From Gottfriedia acidiceleris (GTDB lineage: Bacteria; Bacillota; Bacilli; Bacillales; Bacillaceae_G): a stretch of DNA of 64,000 nucleotides. Positions 21,639 through 26,760 of this stretch are shown here, one piece after another. Under the pieces are notes generated by a model that was given only the letters and a program-made list of their open reading frames with translations, was not told the origin of the DNA and made no database searches. Position numbers and translations under genes: made by a program. Positions within the stretch are counted from its first letter, which is position 1; each line of letters opens with the position of its first letter. The stretch lies in contig NZ_NESS01000002.1 in assembly GCF_002128425.1 (NCBI RefSeq), forward strand, positions 372,001 through 436,000, written 5' to 3'.

Positions 21639-24600
21639 TTGAAAATAAGTCAACTAATTGCAAATAATATTAATAAATTAGATGCAATTTTACCTGAGAA
21701 TCAGTCGTTAGGAATTGCTGGATTATCTGGTTCTGGTAAAACAACCTTTTGTCAAACAATTGGGGAAGAATCAAAGAAACGACTTGTATCTTTACTTCCA
21801 AAGGCTGAATATCAATATTTGTTTCCAAACATTATGGATACAAATTTTAGTGCTATTAAGATGGAAGATATGCCATTAGTACTTTTCCTAGGCAAATCAT
21901 CCATTTCTACTAATCCACGTTCAACACTTGGAACACATACTGGTGTATTTAAAGACATTCGTGTAAGTCTTGCAGAAAAGTTTAATCTTTCTCCAGAAGT
22001 TTTTTCGTTTAATAATGAATTAGGCTGGTGTCCGGATTGTAAAGGTCGTGGAATTACAAAAAATATTGAATGTAAAAATTGTAAAGGAAACCGTTTTAAT
22101 CAAAAAATTGAAGAATATACAATTGAGTTATTTGAACGTCCACATTCTATTTCAGATATTAATAACTTAAGTGTCGAAACAATTTTATCACTAGCAGAAG
22201 AATTACAAATTAGTGAAGCTAAACAGCATCTACTCAACAATATAATCAAAATGAATATTGGCTATTTATCTTTAAATCGAATAACAGGAACATTATCTGG
22301 TGGAGAAATAACTCGACTTTATTTAGCCGAATTTATGGCAACTAGTGAAAATACAGTAATTATAATCGATGAAATTTCGGTAGGGCTTGATCATGATACG
22401 TTAATTAGAATATTAGATGAGATAAAGGAATTAGGATTGAAAAATCAAATATGGTTAATTGACCATTCTGATACTGTATTAGACGCGACTGATGATCAAG
22501 TATTTTTTGGACCCGGCAGTGGAAAGTATGGCGGTAAAATTGTTGAAGAGTCTCCACGACCAAAACCAATTTACTGCCAAAGAAATCAAACTTTGCCTAA
22601 TGAGTTTTATGAGTTTAAAGATCTTCATTGTCGCAATATCCAAATTCAAGAGATACAAATTCCTAAAAATAGACTAGTTACTTTTACCGGCGAATCCGGT
22701 TGTGGTAAATCAACTCTAGTAAATGAGTGTATGTCAAAAGACTTTTTAAAACGATATCCTAAAGATAAATTAGTGATGGTAGGGCAGGATCGAAACCAAT
22801 CGATTACGAGTCGTTCAACAGTTGCTACATTTTTAGATATAAAAAGAAAGTTAACAAAATATAGTAATGAAATTGATGATATTTTCCAACGTTCAATCGA
22901 GGATATTATTGAAGAACTACCGAACGAAGACATTGCACATAAGCGATTAAGCCTATTAATCAAACTTGGTCTTGGCTATCTCACACTTGAAAGAAAAACA
23001 CAAACACTATCAACTGGAGAATTTCAATGTGTACATCTAGTTTCTGAACTATTTTCTAATTCAAGAAACCCTCATACTCTATTTATTTTTGATGAACCTT
23101 CAAAAGGATTATCACAAAATATATTAAATCAATTTATCGATAGTATTCGAGATATTCTAAATGATGAATCGATTTCCATTATGATGATTGAACACAATGC
23201 ATACATGTTAGAAAGCTCAGATTATATTGTAGATTTTGGAAAAAGAAAGATAACGCCTGTTGAACATCTTGAAGTTGTAGGTCATGATGACTATTTTAAT
23301 CAATTAAAACAGGACAATGAAAAGCGTCAAGCGCATATTTCATCAGAGCTCAAAGTACAAAATGGCGTTCAATATATACAAGAAAATAATATAAATTATT
23401 TCAAAAATGCTGAAAACATATATAAGGGTGGAATATTAAAAAGTCTATCATCAATGGCACGACTTATTTATGGGGAATATGAAGCAGATGCTATTCTTCC
23501 TGTTATTGCAATTGATTTAGAAAGACATTTATATAGTCAATATACATTTTTATATGAAATTGGTGGACTAATTAATCAAATTGTTGCTTCACATCCAACT
23601 AATAAGGATTCAAGAAGCTTTGACTTTTATAACCAAGAAAATCATTGTCCATCTTGCTCTGGCCGTAGAGTAATTGAGAAGTTTGATATTGATGTAGTCA
23701 TTCAAGATAAAACAGTACCATTTTGGGAAGGCTTATTGCATCCAGATGTAATGGAAGTTTTAAAATATTACCAATATCCTAAATTACAATTCCTATTTGA
23801 TGAAATTAAAAATGAACTAGGTCATGACATTAGTAAAAGTTTTAATGAGATGTCAGAAGCAGAAAAGCATACTTTTTTATATGGATATTATGAAAAAACT
23901 TTTTATGATAAAGCTGGAAAGACGCAAAGATTATGGGAAGGCTTTAACACCATTATTGGAAGGTATATGTCTATTTCGAAATCGACTATTAAAGAACAAA
24001 TGAAGGCTTCAAAGAAGCAAATTACATGTCCAATTTGCGAAGGCACAGTATTAAACCATCACAAAAAATTAATGTTTGGTGATTCTGATATTCGTGAAAT
24101 AATAAATCAGCCTGTAGATCAAGTAATTAAAACGGTTGGTCAGCTAACAGTTTTAGAAGAAATAAAATCAATTGTTGGTGGAGAATCAGCTTTGACAATA
24201 GAAGTTTCTTTACTATCACGAGAGCAACAGGTTGCTTTAAAAATGCTAGAAATAAAACAAGCAAGTTTCGTTGGATATGAAGTTGTCTTACAAAATGCTT
24301 TACCATTTTGGGATCGTGTTAAGACAAATATTGAAGAAGTAAGCAATAAAAACTTAGTAACGATAACTGATTTTAAAGATATATATGAAACTAGAGAAGA
24401 CATTATAGACAAATATTTTACAAATGGTAAATTCAAAAAACTAACATATGTTTATGAAGCATTTGGATATAAAAAAATTGTTACTCTAATTAATAAAATA
24501 AAAGCAAGTAATCCTTGTCCGTTCTGTAAAGGAAAGAAAGTAATTTCTGAAGATAATCTACATGATGGGGTATATAAATTAACAATTCCTTGTGTTAGCT

Positions 24601-24809
24601 GTTATGCTAGTGGGATCAATGAGAGTGGACGTCAGCAGCTTGTTGAGGGTATTGCGGTTCAAACATGGCTCACTGGTAAAGTAAGTGAAATTGTACCTGA
24701 AAATTTAATAACGGAAGAAGTTAAAGACATACCGATTTTCAATCGTATAAGAGAACTAAATAAACGTGATATGATGGCAGTATATCAATGTTTGATTCAA
24801 AATAATTAA
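21639..24809 (+). CDS. UvrA-like ABC ATPase with long Cys-rich C-terminal extension
   Basis: 1056 residues, TTG start after GAGAGGA. Module 1: Walker A GLSGSGKT (28-35), a four-Cys zinc site at C131/C134/C145/C148, signature LSGGE (219-223), Walker B IIIDE (241-245). Module 2: Walker A GESGCGKS (351-358), altered signature LSTGE (457-461), Walker B FIFDEP, His519. Only about 95 residues separate Walker A from the first zinc site, so the UvrB-binding and insertion domains of canonical UvrA seem to be missing. Residues about 560-1056 add further Cys pairs (C670/C673, C797/C800, C960/C963, C985/C988). It is a UvrA paralogue, not the repair protein itself; drug-resistance or DNA-related roles are possible. 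It stands alone. Confidence 0.8.
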   Translation: MKISQLIANNINKLDAILPENQSLGIAGLSGSGKTTFCQTIGEESKKRLVSLLPKAEYQYLFPNIMDTNFSAIKMEDMPLVLFLGKSSISTNPRSTLGTHTGVFKDIRVSLAEKFNLSPEVFSFNNELGWCPDCKGRGITKNIECKNCKGNRFNQKIEEYTIELFERPHSISDINNLSVETILSLAEELQISEAKQHLLNNIIKMNIGYLSLNRITGTLSGGEITRLYLAEFMATSENTVIIIDEISVGLDHDTLIRILDEIKELGLKNQIWLIDHSDTVLDATDDQVFFGPGSGKYGGKIVEESPRPKPIYCQRNQTLPNEFYEFKDLHCRNIQIQEIQIPKNRLVTFTGESGCGKSTLVNECMSKDFLKRYPKDKLVMVGQDRNQSITSRSTVATFLDIKRKLTKYSNEIDDIFQRSIEDIIEELPNEDIAHKRLSLLIKLGLGYLTLERKTQTLSTGEFQCVHLVSELFSNSRNPHTLFIFDEPSKGLSQNILNQFIDSIRDILNDESISIMMIEHNAYMLESSDYIVDFGKRKITPVEHLEVVGHDDYFNQLKQDNEKRQAHISSELKVQNGVQYIQENNINYFKNAENIYKGGILKSLSSMARLIYGEYEADAILPVIAIDLERHLYSQYTFLYEIGGLINQIVASHPTNKDSRSFDFYNQENHCPSCSGRRVIEKFDIDVVIQDKTVPFWEGLLHPDVMEVLKYYQYPKLQFLFDEIKNELGHDISKSFNEMSEAEKHTFLYGYYEKTFYDKAGKTQRLWEGFNTIIGRYMSISKSTIKEQMKASKKQITCPICEGTVLNHHKKLMFGDSDIREIINQPVDQVIKTVGQLTVLEEIKSIVGGESALTIEVSLLSREQQVALKMLEIKQASFVGYEVVLQNALPFWDRVKTNIEEVSNKNLVTITDFKDIYETREDIIDKYFTNGKFKKLTYVYEAFGYKKIVTLINKIKASNPCPFCKGKKVISEDNLHDGVYKLTIPCVSCYASGINESGRQQLVEGIAVQTWLTGKVSEIVPENLITEEVKDIPIFNRIRELNKRDMMAVYQCLIQNN

Positions 24810-25437: not shown

Positions 25438-26019
25438 ATGATAGACGGAGAAGTTATATTAACTAGTTCTCAAATAAGAGAGCAGTTGGAGTTGAAACCT
25501 AGCACCTTCAGAAAGTATCAGGACATCTTAGAGAAGGTTGGTTATTCAATCAAGAAGAATAGTAGAGGACATCGACAATATTCAAATTATGATTTCGTGA
25601 TATTCGAAAAACTAATTGAATTAAGTAAGCATGATGGTATGACGTTAGAGAAGTCTGCGAGAATGATAATAGAGCAAACCAATAGATTAATACATAATAC
25701 TGAAATGATAGACGAAAAAAAATCATTTAACTTAACAGAGCACCTAATACAGATAAACAATGAACACCAATTGCAAACAATTGGAAAACTAATGAATGAA
25801 ATGGAAGAAAGACTTTCTAATAAGATGGATCTACAACATAAAGAAGTATTAAAGCAACGTGAAAAGCAGACCAGCTTACTGTTAGAAGAATGGAGAAAAC
25901 AAAGAAAACAAGATCAACAACTTTTATTAGAAACGGCAGCCACTCAAGAAAAGACTTCATTACGAAAGAAAGTAAAAGAAAAAATGGAAGAATTAAAAAA
26001 ATGGTATTTCGAAATATGA
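25438..26019 (+). CDS. MerR-like DNA-binding protein with coiled coil, DUF3967-like
   Basis: A 193-residue protein. Residues about 8-80 form a winged helix of MerR type (TSSQIREQLELKPSTFRKYQ, RGHRQYSNYDFVIFEKL, DGMTLEKSARMI). Residues about 100-190 are a charged coiled coil rich in Glu, Lys and Gln ending ELKKWYFEI. This layout matches the MerR/DUF3967 proteins often carried by Bacillus plasmids, thought to be DNA-binding maintenance factors. AAGGAGTG precedes ATG. Its stop overlaps the start of a 31-residue membrane peptide (ATGA). A broken homologue lies on the minus strand at 48883-49230. Confidence 0.75.
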   Translation: MIDGEVILTSSQIREQLELKPSTFRKYQDILEKVGYSIKKNSRGHRQYSNYDFVIFEKLIELSKHDGMTLEKSARMIIEQTNRLIHNTEMIDEKKSFNLTEHLIQINNEHQLQTIGKLMNEMEERLSNKMDLQHKEVLKQREKQTSLLLEEWRKQRKQDQQLLLETAATQEKTSLRKKVKEKMEELKKWYFEI

Positions 26020-26111
26020 GCTTAGATTACATTATAGCGATTTCTTCCGTTGCTTTTGTCGTTGGAATGATACAAGCTATCTTATATGGAATTGTACGAT
26101 CAATAAATTAA
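26016..26111 (+). CDS. 31-residue membrane peptide coupled to the MerR-like gene
   Basis: The start codon overlaps the stop of the preceding gene as ATGA, the classical arrangement for translational coupling. The product has a short N-terminus (MSLDY), one hydrophobic helix (IIAISSVAFVVGMIQAILYG) and a short basic tail (IVRSIN). A terminator begins immediately after its stop. Overlap, composition and terminator together support a real gene despite its size. I do not recognise a family. A membrane anchor or partner for the DNA-binding coiled-coil protein is an attractive but unproven idea. Confidence 0.6.
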   Translation: MSLDYIIAISSVAFVVGMIQAILYGIVRSIN

Positions 26112-26140: not shown

Positions 26141-26397
26141 TTTATCTGAAATTATTATGTAAACTCGATACATATTGAGCGTTGTTGAAGTGTAGAGGAT
26201 CTTGAATAAAGTTGCGGATCTACCCGGCATTGATATTATCTGAACACTTCGTATAGAAAAAAGAACCAACGTTCTGTTTGAATATACCTTCTAGCTTCAT
26301 AATTCTATTACCCTTATCAAGTTCAAAAGCTGCCGTTGAAGTAATGTTAATCCTCTCTTATGCACTAAATGGCTCAAAATTAAATCCTAAAAAAACA
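26141..26397. other. No intact gene; possible minus-strand coding relic
   Basis: Reading the minus strand from about 26350 to 26222 gives an open stretch with normal-looking composition (ITSTAAFELDKGNRIMKLEG, then IFKQNVGSFFYTK), closed by stops on both sides. It looks like a fragment of a lost gene; its family was not recognised. Confidence 0.25.
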
Positions 26398-26429
26398 GAA
26401 CATACATTCTAGTATTTTGAATATACTTA

Positions 26430-26438
26430 TGGTAAAAT
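26430..26438 (+). promoter_or_regulatory. Extended -10 promoter of the type I toxin mRNA
   Basis: TGGTAAAAT is an extended -10 element without a good -35. GAACATACATTC at 26398-26409, just upstream, resembles a degenerate LexA/DinR box (GAAC-N4-GTTC with one change in the core). If real it would put the toxin under SOS control; the match is imperfect. Confidence 0.5.
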
Positions 26439-26494
26439 TAGGTAGAGTAGAGTTGTGGTAGGTGCCTTTCTTCGCTAAGAAGGGAGGTGAGAAT

Positions 26495-26602
26495 GTGACT
26501 GGTTATGAGATTGCAAATTTAATTATTCAGAGTGTTGGGATAACCGCAACTGTAATCTTAAGCATAATCGGTATTATCATTTCTATTAGCAAAAAAAAAT
26601 AA
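26495..26602 (+). CDS. Type I toxin, putative holin-like toxin family
   Basis: A 35-residue peptide from GTG: short polar start MTGYEIANLIIQ, one transmembrane helix (VGITATVILSIIGIIISI) and a lysine tail. This is the layout of the small holin-like/TxpA-BsrG-type toxins of Firmicutes, which insert in the membrane. The ribosome site GGGAGGTGA is strong, but its 5' side (AAGAAGGG, 26477-26484) can pair with CCTTTCTT at 26465-26472, a hairpin that would restrain translation. The three AAA lysine codons are, on the other strand, the T9 tract of the antisense RNA terminator. The mRNA would run from about 26445 to the hairpin at 26682-26712. Confidence 0.8.
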   Translation: MTGYEIANLIIQSVGITATVILSIIGIIISISKKK

Positions 26603-26725
26603 CCACCCTACCCCTCGAATGGTTGTGGTGATTATTTCTTCACTGGATCCGAGGAAAGCAACTTTACCAATTACTACTCGGAAGGGGTGTGTTCGCAGCA
26701 CATCCCTTTTTAGTATATTCTTTAT
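26591..26725 (-). ncRNA. Antisense antitoxin RNA (predicted)
   Basis: A minus-strand transcript of about 135 nt predicted from two signals. Its promoter at 26732-26760 is near-consensus, giving a start near 26725. Its terminator is formed by AATCACC/GGTGGTT (26601-26633) followed by nine T on the minus strand. It would base-pair with the 3' part of the toxin mRNA, including its terminator hairpin and the end of the coding region, as in txpA/RatA and bsrG/SR4. Ends are inferred, not measured. Confidence 0.7.
26682..26712 (+). terminator. Terminator of toxin mRNA
   Basis: GGGGTGTG pairs with CACATCCC around a 7-nt loop, followed by TTTTT. It lies within the region covered by the antisense RNA. 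Confidence 0.75.
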
Positions 26726-26731
26726 GACTTT

Positions 26732-26760
26732 ATTATAGTCCTTTTAGTATAGTTTGACAA
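26732..26760 (-). promoter_or_regulatory. Promoter of antisense antitoxin RNA
   Basis: On the minus strand, TTGTCA (26755-26760) and TATAAT (26732-26737) are separated by exactly 17 nt. This is one of the best vegetative promoters in the window, and it points at the 3' end of the toxin gene. Confidence 0.8.

Follow-up and report, generated by a model that had tools for sequence, protein, structure and literature searches.

A probable type I toxin-antitoxin locus of the Hol_Tox/txpA kind, conserved across Gottfriedia, with a predicted LexA-type box at the toxin promoter

What is a one-helix toxin gene with a facing antisense RNA for in the chromosome of Gottfriedia acidiceleris, and what would switch it on? 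The question is raised by a short locus in a 64 kb stretch of contig sequence from this bacterium, a stretch that is termed the window here. Judged from its sequence, the segment at 26398-26760 holds all parts of a type I toxin-antitoxin system of the Hol_Tox/txpA kind, and it is conserved. A predicted LexA-type box in front of the toxin gene alters the likely purpose of the locus. Coordinates of the features are collected in Table 1.

Table 1. Features of the putative toxin-antitoxin locus, in window positions
Feature	Positions	Strand	Basis or remark
Predicted LexA (SOS) box AGAACATACATTCT, core GAACATACATTC at 26398-26409	26397-26410		Matrix and conservation
Predicted toxin promoter, extended -10 TGG-TAAAAT	26430-26438	+	Sequence; no clear -35
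Predicted toxin mRNA, about 267 nt	26445-26711	+	Start inferred from -10; 3' hairpin with double changes
Leader GGTAGG	26457-26462	+	Can pair with CCTACC 26607-26612, directly 3' of the stop codon
SD hairpin GCCTTTCTTC / GAAGGGAGGT over the SD core	26464-26488	+	Fold; genus consensus fold
Shine-Dalgarno (SD) sequence GGGAGGTGA	26482-26490	+	GGTG invariant in genus alignment
Toxin ORF	26495-26602	+	35 aa from a GTG start; one hydrophobic helix, Hol_Tox-like; KKK end
Lysine codons AAA AAA AAA (+) / T9 tract (-)	26591-26599	both	Sequence; 13/13 genomes
Predicted antisense RNA (antitoxin) of about 135 nt	26591-26725	-	Promoter and terminator; start inferred from -10
Antisense terminator hairpin	26596-26638	-	Stem 26624-26601; consensus fold extends the stem
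Toxin mRNA terminator AAGGGGTGTG-loop-CACATCCCTT and T run	26682-26711	+	GC to AU double change in 3/13 sequences
Antisense promoter	26732-26760	-	-10 TATAAT 26737-26732, -35 TTGTCA 26760-26755

The original prediction placed a 35-residue frame with a strong ribosome site at the centre of the locus. The frame is found as claimed, from its GTG to its TAA, with a strong SD sequence in front. It fits a type I toxin gene, encoding a small hydrophobic peptide (best 19-residue mean hydropathy, 2.39) that is present in all 13 Gottfriedia genomes. The other elements of that account also lie where it put them, except that the best-folding hairpin at the SD is shifted. Three elements are added to it here, namely the toxin promoter, the toxin terminator and the LexA-type box. 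The first base of the box core, 26398, is the position at which that account began the locus.

On the opposite strand, the near-consensus promoter TTGTCA-17-TATAAT is present as foreseen and agrees with the consensus at 11 of 12 positions. TTGTCA is found in 13/13 genomes and TATAAT in 12/13, with TATACT in the genome termed G004. The antisense RNA predicted to start there would end at a stem followed by a T9 tract that is the complement of the three lysine codons, again as proposed, and this tail is kept as AAAAAAAAA or AAAAGAAAA throughout the genus (13/13 genomes). At the sequence level, an antisense RNA gene with its own promoter and terminator overlaps the toxin mRNA. The first hairpin of the antisense RNA comes from the opposite strand of the toxin terminator. 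When the antisense strand is folded by consensus, 5 of 35 pairs show double compensatory changes. Four of these occur solely in G004; the fifth, a GC to AU change common to three genomes, sits in the hairpin that is the toxin terminator on the other strand.

Could frame, promoter and terminator be fortuitous in AT-rich DNA? Promoter-like sites are not rare in the region, with four found in the 1 kb scanned against 4.5 expected from shuffles. However, the conservation in 13 of 13 genomes, a third-position bias in close relatives and the compensatory pairs all speak against chance. Because the locus is conserved, a chance origin is in effect refuted, and we give it next to no credence.

The statement that one stretch serves as both coding tail and terminator was right, but this is a habit of the whole family and therefore not special to the present locus. 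The family was sampled as 138 distinct toxins outside Gottfriedia, 80 from the order and 58 from the class outside the order. The loci were the best-scoring among the matches listed and were hand-picked to spread over genomes, so the sample is not random. Loci in which the ORF rule found no toxin were dropped (16/100 in the order, 29/88 outside it) and duplicates were removed (84 to 80 and 59 to 58). In 115 of the 138, the minus strand has a hairpin of -10 kcal/mol or lower and, right after it, a T-tract with its start within the toxin ORF; when the 70 bases 3' of the stop codon were shuffled 20 times, the mean was 36 and the maximum 46. A threshold of -7 kcal/mol separates worse (115/138 versus a shuffle mean of 68). 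A minus-strand promoter matching at 10/12 positions or more comes next in 46 of the 138 relatives; one shuffle gave 13 and the plus strand 5. The idea that selection on the T-tract shows as a preference for AAA was rejected, the AAA:AAG ratio being 211:94 in the last four residues versus 27:7 elsewhere. Since the tail has no AAA preference, selection on the tail lysine codons themselves is unsupported. The overlap of lysine tail and antitoxin terminator ties the two genes together, and the tail could hardly change without touching the antitoxin.

The hairpin proposed at the ribosome site exists, but in another register. Its arms, at 26464-26473 and 26479-26488, pair around the loop GCTAA, and with this shift the SD core itself is hidden and not just its 5' side. 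The unpaired probability is at most 0.06 at 19 of the 20 paired bases and 0.18 at 26488. Because the pairs show one-sided changes only and zero double changes in the genus consensus fold, the hairpin is conserved, short of proof by covariation. In the wider Hol_Tox-type family, the SD is paired in only 65/131 members. The leader motif GGTAGG and its CCTACC partner beyond the stop codon also appear in the consensus fold (columns 25-30 with 181-188) and are paired in 11-12 of the 13 sequences. Family-wide, the leader/3' UTR pairing has a mean of -20.8, versus -17.6 with shuffled and -17.7 with swapped tails, which is a modest tendency. At -10 kcal/mol, 123/138 real cases compare with 126 and 125 of 138 in the controls; since these hardly differ, leader/3' UTR pairing is a tentative step.

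Clear matches to the toxin peptide are confined to Gottfriedia among the 60 genomes searched. The peptide is found in the genome under study and 12 others of the genus at 57-97% identity, in none of the six same-family genomes outside the genus, and as weak matches only (E 0.2 and up) in 7 of the other 41 genomes. A search with the toxin-start pattern returned 22 stretches, ten of which encode the Gottfriedia toxin, from Gottfriedia luciferensis, acidiceleris, solisilvae, endophytica or 'Bacillus sp.'; seven encode other Hol_Tox-like peptides, mostly from Clostridia, and five are unrelated. Among the nine closest relatives, the second codon position of the toxin gene is free of differences and the third has the most. 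The most distant genomes, G001, G008 and G004, have non-synonymous to synonymous changed codons of 9/7, 10/6 and 16/7, respectively.

Within 1.5 kb of flanking sequence, an EamA-type gene adjoins the toxin in 12/13 genomes and a MerR-like gene lies upstream in 7/13. The locus appears from these comparisons to be a settled chromosomal place with a replaced upstream flank, and its promoter region stands out as a conserved footprint against that changing flank. A 31-residue hydrophobic ORF at 26016-26111 and the MerR-like gene overlap at the latter's stop codon. The ORF is matched over 30 residues in one relative (G009) and partly in two others (G005, G003); it is possibly a translationally coupled micro-protein. 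A blastn search of the locus against phages and plasmids gave zero matches, as did a tblastn search of the same sets with one Hol_Tox toxin, a short query that makes the search insensitive.

Is the peptide a holin-like toxin? A profile comparison points to kinship with this family; the Pfam cut-off is not reached. Against Hol_Tox (PF16935), residues 1-35 align with profile positions 1-34 at 12.4 bits, where the cut-off is 23.3, and the unrelated, eukaryotic-type one-helix family ATP1G1_PLM_MAT8 scores slightly higher (15 bits, cut-off 26.9). Four of seven orthologues match Hol_Tox at E up to 1, the best at 0.031. Whole-genome Hol_Tox searches had other loci of the same genome among the matches listed, with the toxin at 26495-26602 absent. 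A profile of seven toxin orthologues, compared with ten peptides from Hol_Tox loci, matched along its full 35 columns (probability 96.4, E 1.2e-9), and a control with exactly reversed peptides failed to match (30.4, E 5e-4, 12 columns). Other collections gave little: NCBIfam had sub-threshold matches only, PHROGs one weak unnamed match in 1/7 members, a PDB profile search zero matches, and an Rfam gathering scan of the window zero matches. The toxin shares with Hol_Tox its length, a Y-E near the start, the one helix and the lysine end, and the loci share leaders with an SD hairpin that are similar by eye and an antisense terminator in the ORF. Because it differs in falling below the Pfam cut-off, it is called a divergent Hol_Tox subfamily; with the profile match, it is read as a divergent Hol_Tox relative that would work like txpA/RatA. 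Hol_Tox itself is over the cut-off in 209/299 genomes of the order and 101/200 of the class. Two tandem Hol_Tox-type toxins, 385 bases apart and with near-identical leaders, were seen in Candidatus Stoquefichus massiliensis (L041, 7215-7628).

The fixed place beside the EamA-type gene, the want of a plasmid or phage copy by blastn and the low Pfam score would also suit a regulatory or structural membrane micro-protein, the expression of which is merely tuned by the antisense RNA. This is improbable in view of the full-length profile match to Hol_Tox-type peptides, the same sense/antisense design, and a strong SD hidden in a hairpin.

For a toxin-antitoxin locus, the txpA/RatA-type arrangement that had been suggested is the best reading, given the one-helix peptide, the convergent 3' antisense overlap, the hairpin changes and the profile match. 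The likeness is one of layout, and the txpA toxin is longer than the present peptide. The predicted ends of the two RNAs give an overlap of about 120 nt (26591-26711). In Bacillus subtilis, txpA and RatA are described in passages of one account as convergent RNAs with a 3' overlap of about 120 nt, a txpA mRNA of about 270 nt, a very strong SD and a small toxin (PMC3531473). The sprG1/SprF1 pair of Staphylococcus aureus may be likened to the locus by description, being termed in parts of two papers a txpA/RatA homologue with 3'-end complementarity (PMC8309996, PMC8167048).

At the predicted toxin promoter lies a palindrome that resembles a LexA box. It scores 14.3 bits, first of all positions in the window, and the next score is 11.5, at 26261. 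The matrix was built from the promoters of 13 recA, 12 uvrB, 13 lexA and one uvrX gene of Gottfriedia, which we take to be SOS genes, with the toxins excluded, distinct sites used and equal weight given to each gene; boxes were picked in these promoters by a LexA-like regular expression, and one uvrB promoter of 13, that of G001, was dropped by the protein motif filter. With their own gene left out, the SOS-gene boxes score 9.3-16.8. Boxes of the same type stand before recA, uvrB, lexA and a UvrX-like polymerase gene of the genome under study and in relatives (uvrB and the UvrX-like gene, unlike recA and lexA, were named by eye from sequence), and the toxin promoter carries a box like those of recA, uvrB and lexA. 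GAACRTAYATTCT is present at the toxin promoter in 13/13 genus genomes. Of the box columns, 11/13 are invariant, versus 4/20 directly upstream, and ten relatives with a box in the scored range reach 11.2-13.1. The -10 region reads GGTAAAAT in 12 genomes and GATAAAAT in one, at a spacing of 20 nt from the box, or 18 nt in G004. In genome G006, the G. luciferensis counterpart by sequence, the box lies 197 bases before the SD, and an extra 125 bases stand between the boxed promoter and the toxin SD. This copy of boxed promoter and leader with extra bases (L013, upstream of 1501) looks like a duplicated leader.

Some further LexA-type sites and a UvrA-like gene were seen in the same genome. The second-best site of the window, AAGAACCAACGTTCTG at 26261-26276, is followed by TTTGAATATACCTT, which is like the toxin promoter spacer; none was seen at this place in the aligned relatives. 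Perhaps it is the remnant of a duplicated promoter. Sites at L088 1255 and L082 1246 precede genes that by eye are MFS-type and oligopeptidase-like, neither of which we know as an SOS gene. A UvrA-like protein of 1056 aa, encoded at 21639-24809 of the window, falls far below the UvrA model cut-offs and appears to be a divergent UvrA paralogue.

Does the palindrome belong to the SOS response, or is it the site of another regulator, or a promoter element, in a type I locus free of SOS control? The toxin box departs from strict CGAACN4GTTCG in one half-site (ATTC), relatives lack the similar site at 26261, and three other Hol_Tox-type loci of the same genome have no box, their upstream regions scoring 0.4-3.8. 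Against this, the matrix holds sites of SOS genes only, and toxin boxes and uvrB boxes can be the same sequence. The toxin box of G008 is the exact reverse complement of AGAATATACGTTCT, the uvrB box of the genome under study, and the toxin box of G002 is identical to AGAATGTACGTTCT, the uvrB box found in several relatives.

The wider family also bears on this question. At a threshold of 11 in the 200 bases before the start codon, the matrix found LexA-type boxes before 31 of the 138 Hol_Tox-type toxins outside Gottfriedia, compared with one among the 242 other ORFs in these loci and a summed shuffle expectation of 0.8; the remaining 107/138 have no box at this threshold. In the order, 23/80 toxins have a box, versus 2/79 and 1/80 in the flanking controls and a mean of 0.48 (maximum 2) in 100 shuffles. 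In the class outside the order the count is 8/58, with 0/58 in both flanks and shuffles with a mean of 0.34 and a maximum of 2. Boxes of the order at a threshold of 13 touch 11/26 protein clusters. The position is nearly constant, 30 of the 31 boxes beginning at -73 to -112 from the rule-chosen start codon. Strict GAACN4GTTC stands before 12/80 toxins in the order and 5/58 outside it; the shuffle mean is 0.13 in each set and the flanking controls of both sets gave 0, 0, 0 and 1. The family sites fit the Firmicutes LexA box given in part of one paper as TACGAACATATGTTCGTA (PMC2248561) and the B. subtilis box CGAACN4GTTCG given in part of another (PMC9578287).

A type I locus with no SOS control is therefore considered unlikely, given the uvrB identities, the make-up of the matrix and the strict boxes before family toxins. 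The preferred reading, which we hold to be probable, is a chromosomal type I locus of the Hol_Tox/txpA kind with toxin transcription under LexA (SOS) control. From the family counts it also seems likely that SOS control is widespread among the Hol_Tox type I toxins of Bacilli and is a standing trait there.

With LexA control, the locus might work as follows. In the undamaged cell, LexA would sit on the box beside the toxin promoter. Any toxin mRNA that leaks through would be silenced by the SD hairpin, and perhaps also by leader/3' UTR pairing, and the antisense RNA from its near-consensus promoter would pair over the last 120 nt or so of the mRNA 3' end and invite RNase III. The toxin would in this way be doubly silenced, by LexA and by its own antisense RNA. 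DNA damage would remove LexA and let toxin mRNA exceed the antisense RNA, the second lock being out-titrated as for tisB. The one-helix peptide would then enter the membrane, and growth would stall.

Such logic has precedents in Escherichia coli. In the tisB/IstR-1, symE/SymR and dinQ/AgrB systems, according to parts of the papers cited, a LexA box likewise lies at the toxin promoter, and the antitoxins IstR-1, SymR and AgrB are made constitutively from their own promoters (PMC5848175, PMC4147584, PMC6562991). These systems differ in belonging to another phylum, and the analogy is one of logic and not of protein comparison; IstR-1, moreover, as partial accounts have it, pairs with the 5' UTR, whereas the Gottfriedia overlap is 3'. 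Relevant sections of four papers name SOS control for tisB, symE and dinQ of E. coli, and temperature, other stresses, SigB and ResD for type I systems of B. subtilis and Clostridioides difficile (PMC6562991, PMC4147584, PMC5848175, PMC6563280). Genotoxic stress is listed in general terms, in a passage of one of these, among type I triggers in B. subtilis, S. aureus and E. coli (PMC6563280). In contrast to the box predicted in Gottfriedia, sections on txpA in B. subtilis and on Clostridia name no LexA control. The relevant parts of PMC8309996, PMC8167048 and PMC11264685 mention no LexA-controlled type I toxin in Gram-positive bacteria, bar one sentence. That sentence, in a passage of PMC8167048, assigns tisB/IstR to B. 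subtilis and looks like a slip, because the text goes on to E. coli. A literature search, mostly of papers outside subscription, found neither LexA control of holin-like toxins nor a Gottfriedia toxin-antitoxin system.

The predicted LexA box gives a hypothesis for the purpose of chromosomal txpA/Hol_Tox modules, namely that, like tisB, they serve arrest or persistence under DNA damage. It also shows which members of the Hol_Tox family to test first. If the reading is true, the 31 boxes at a near-constant position among 138 toxins would mean that Bacilli hold damage-induced type I toxins on txpA-like modules, independently of E. coli.
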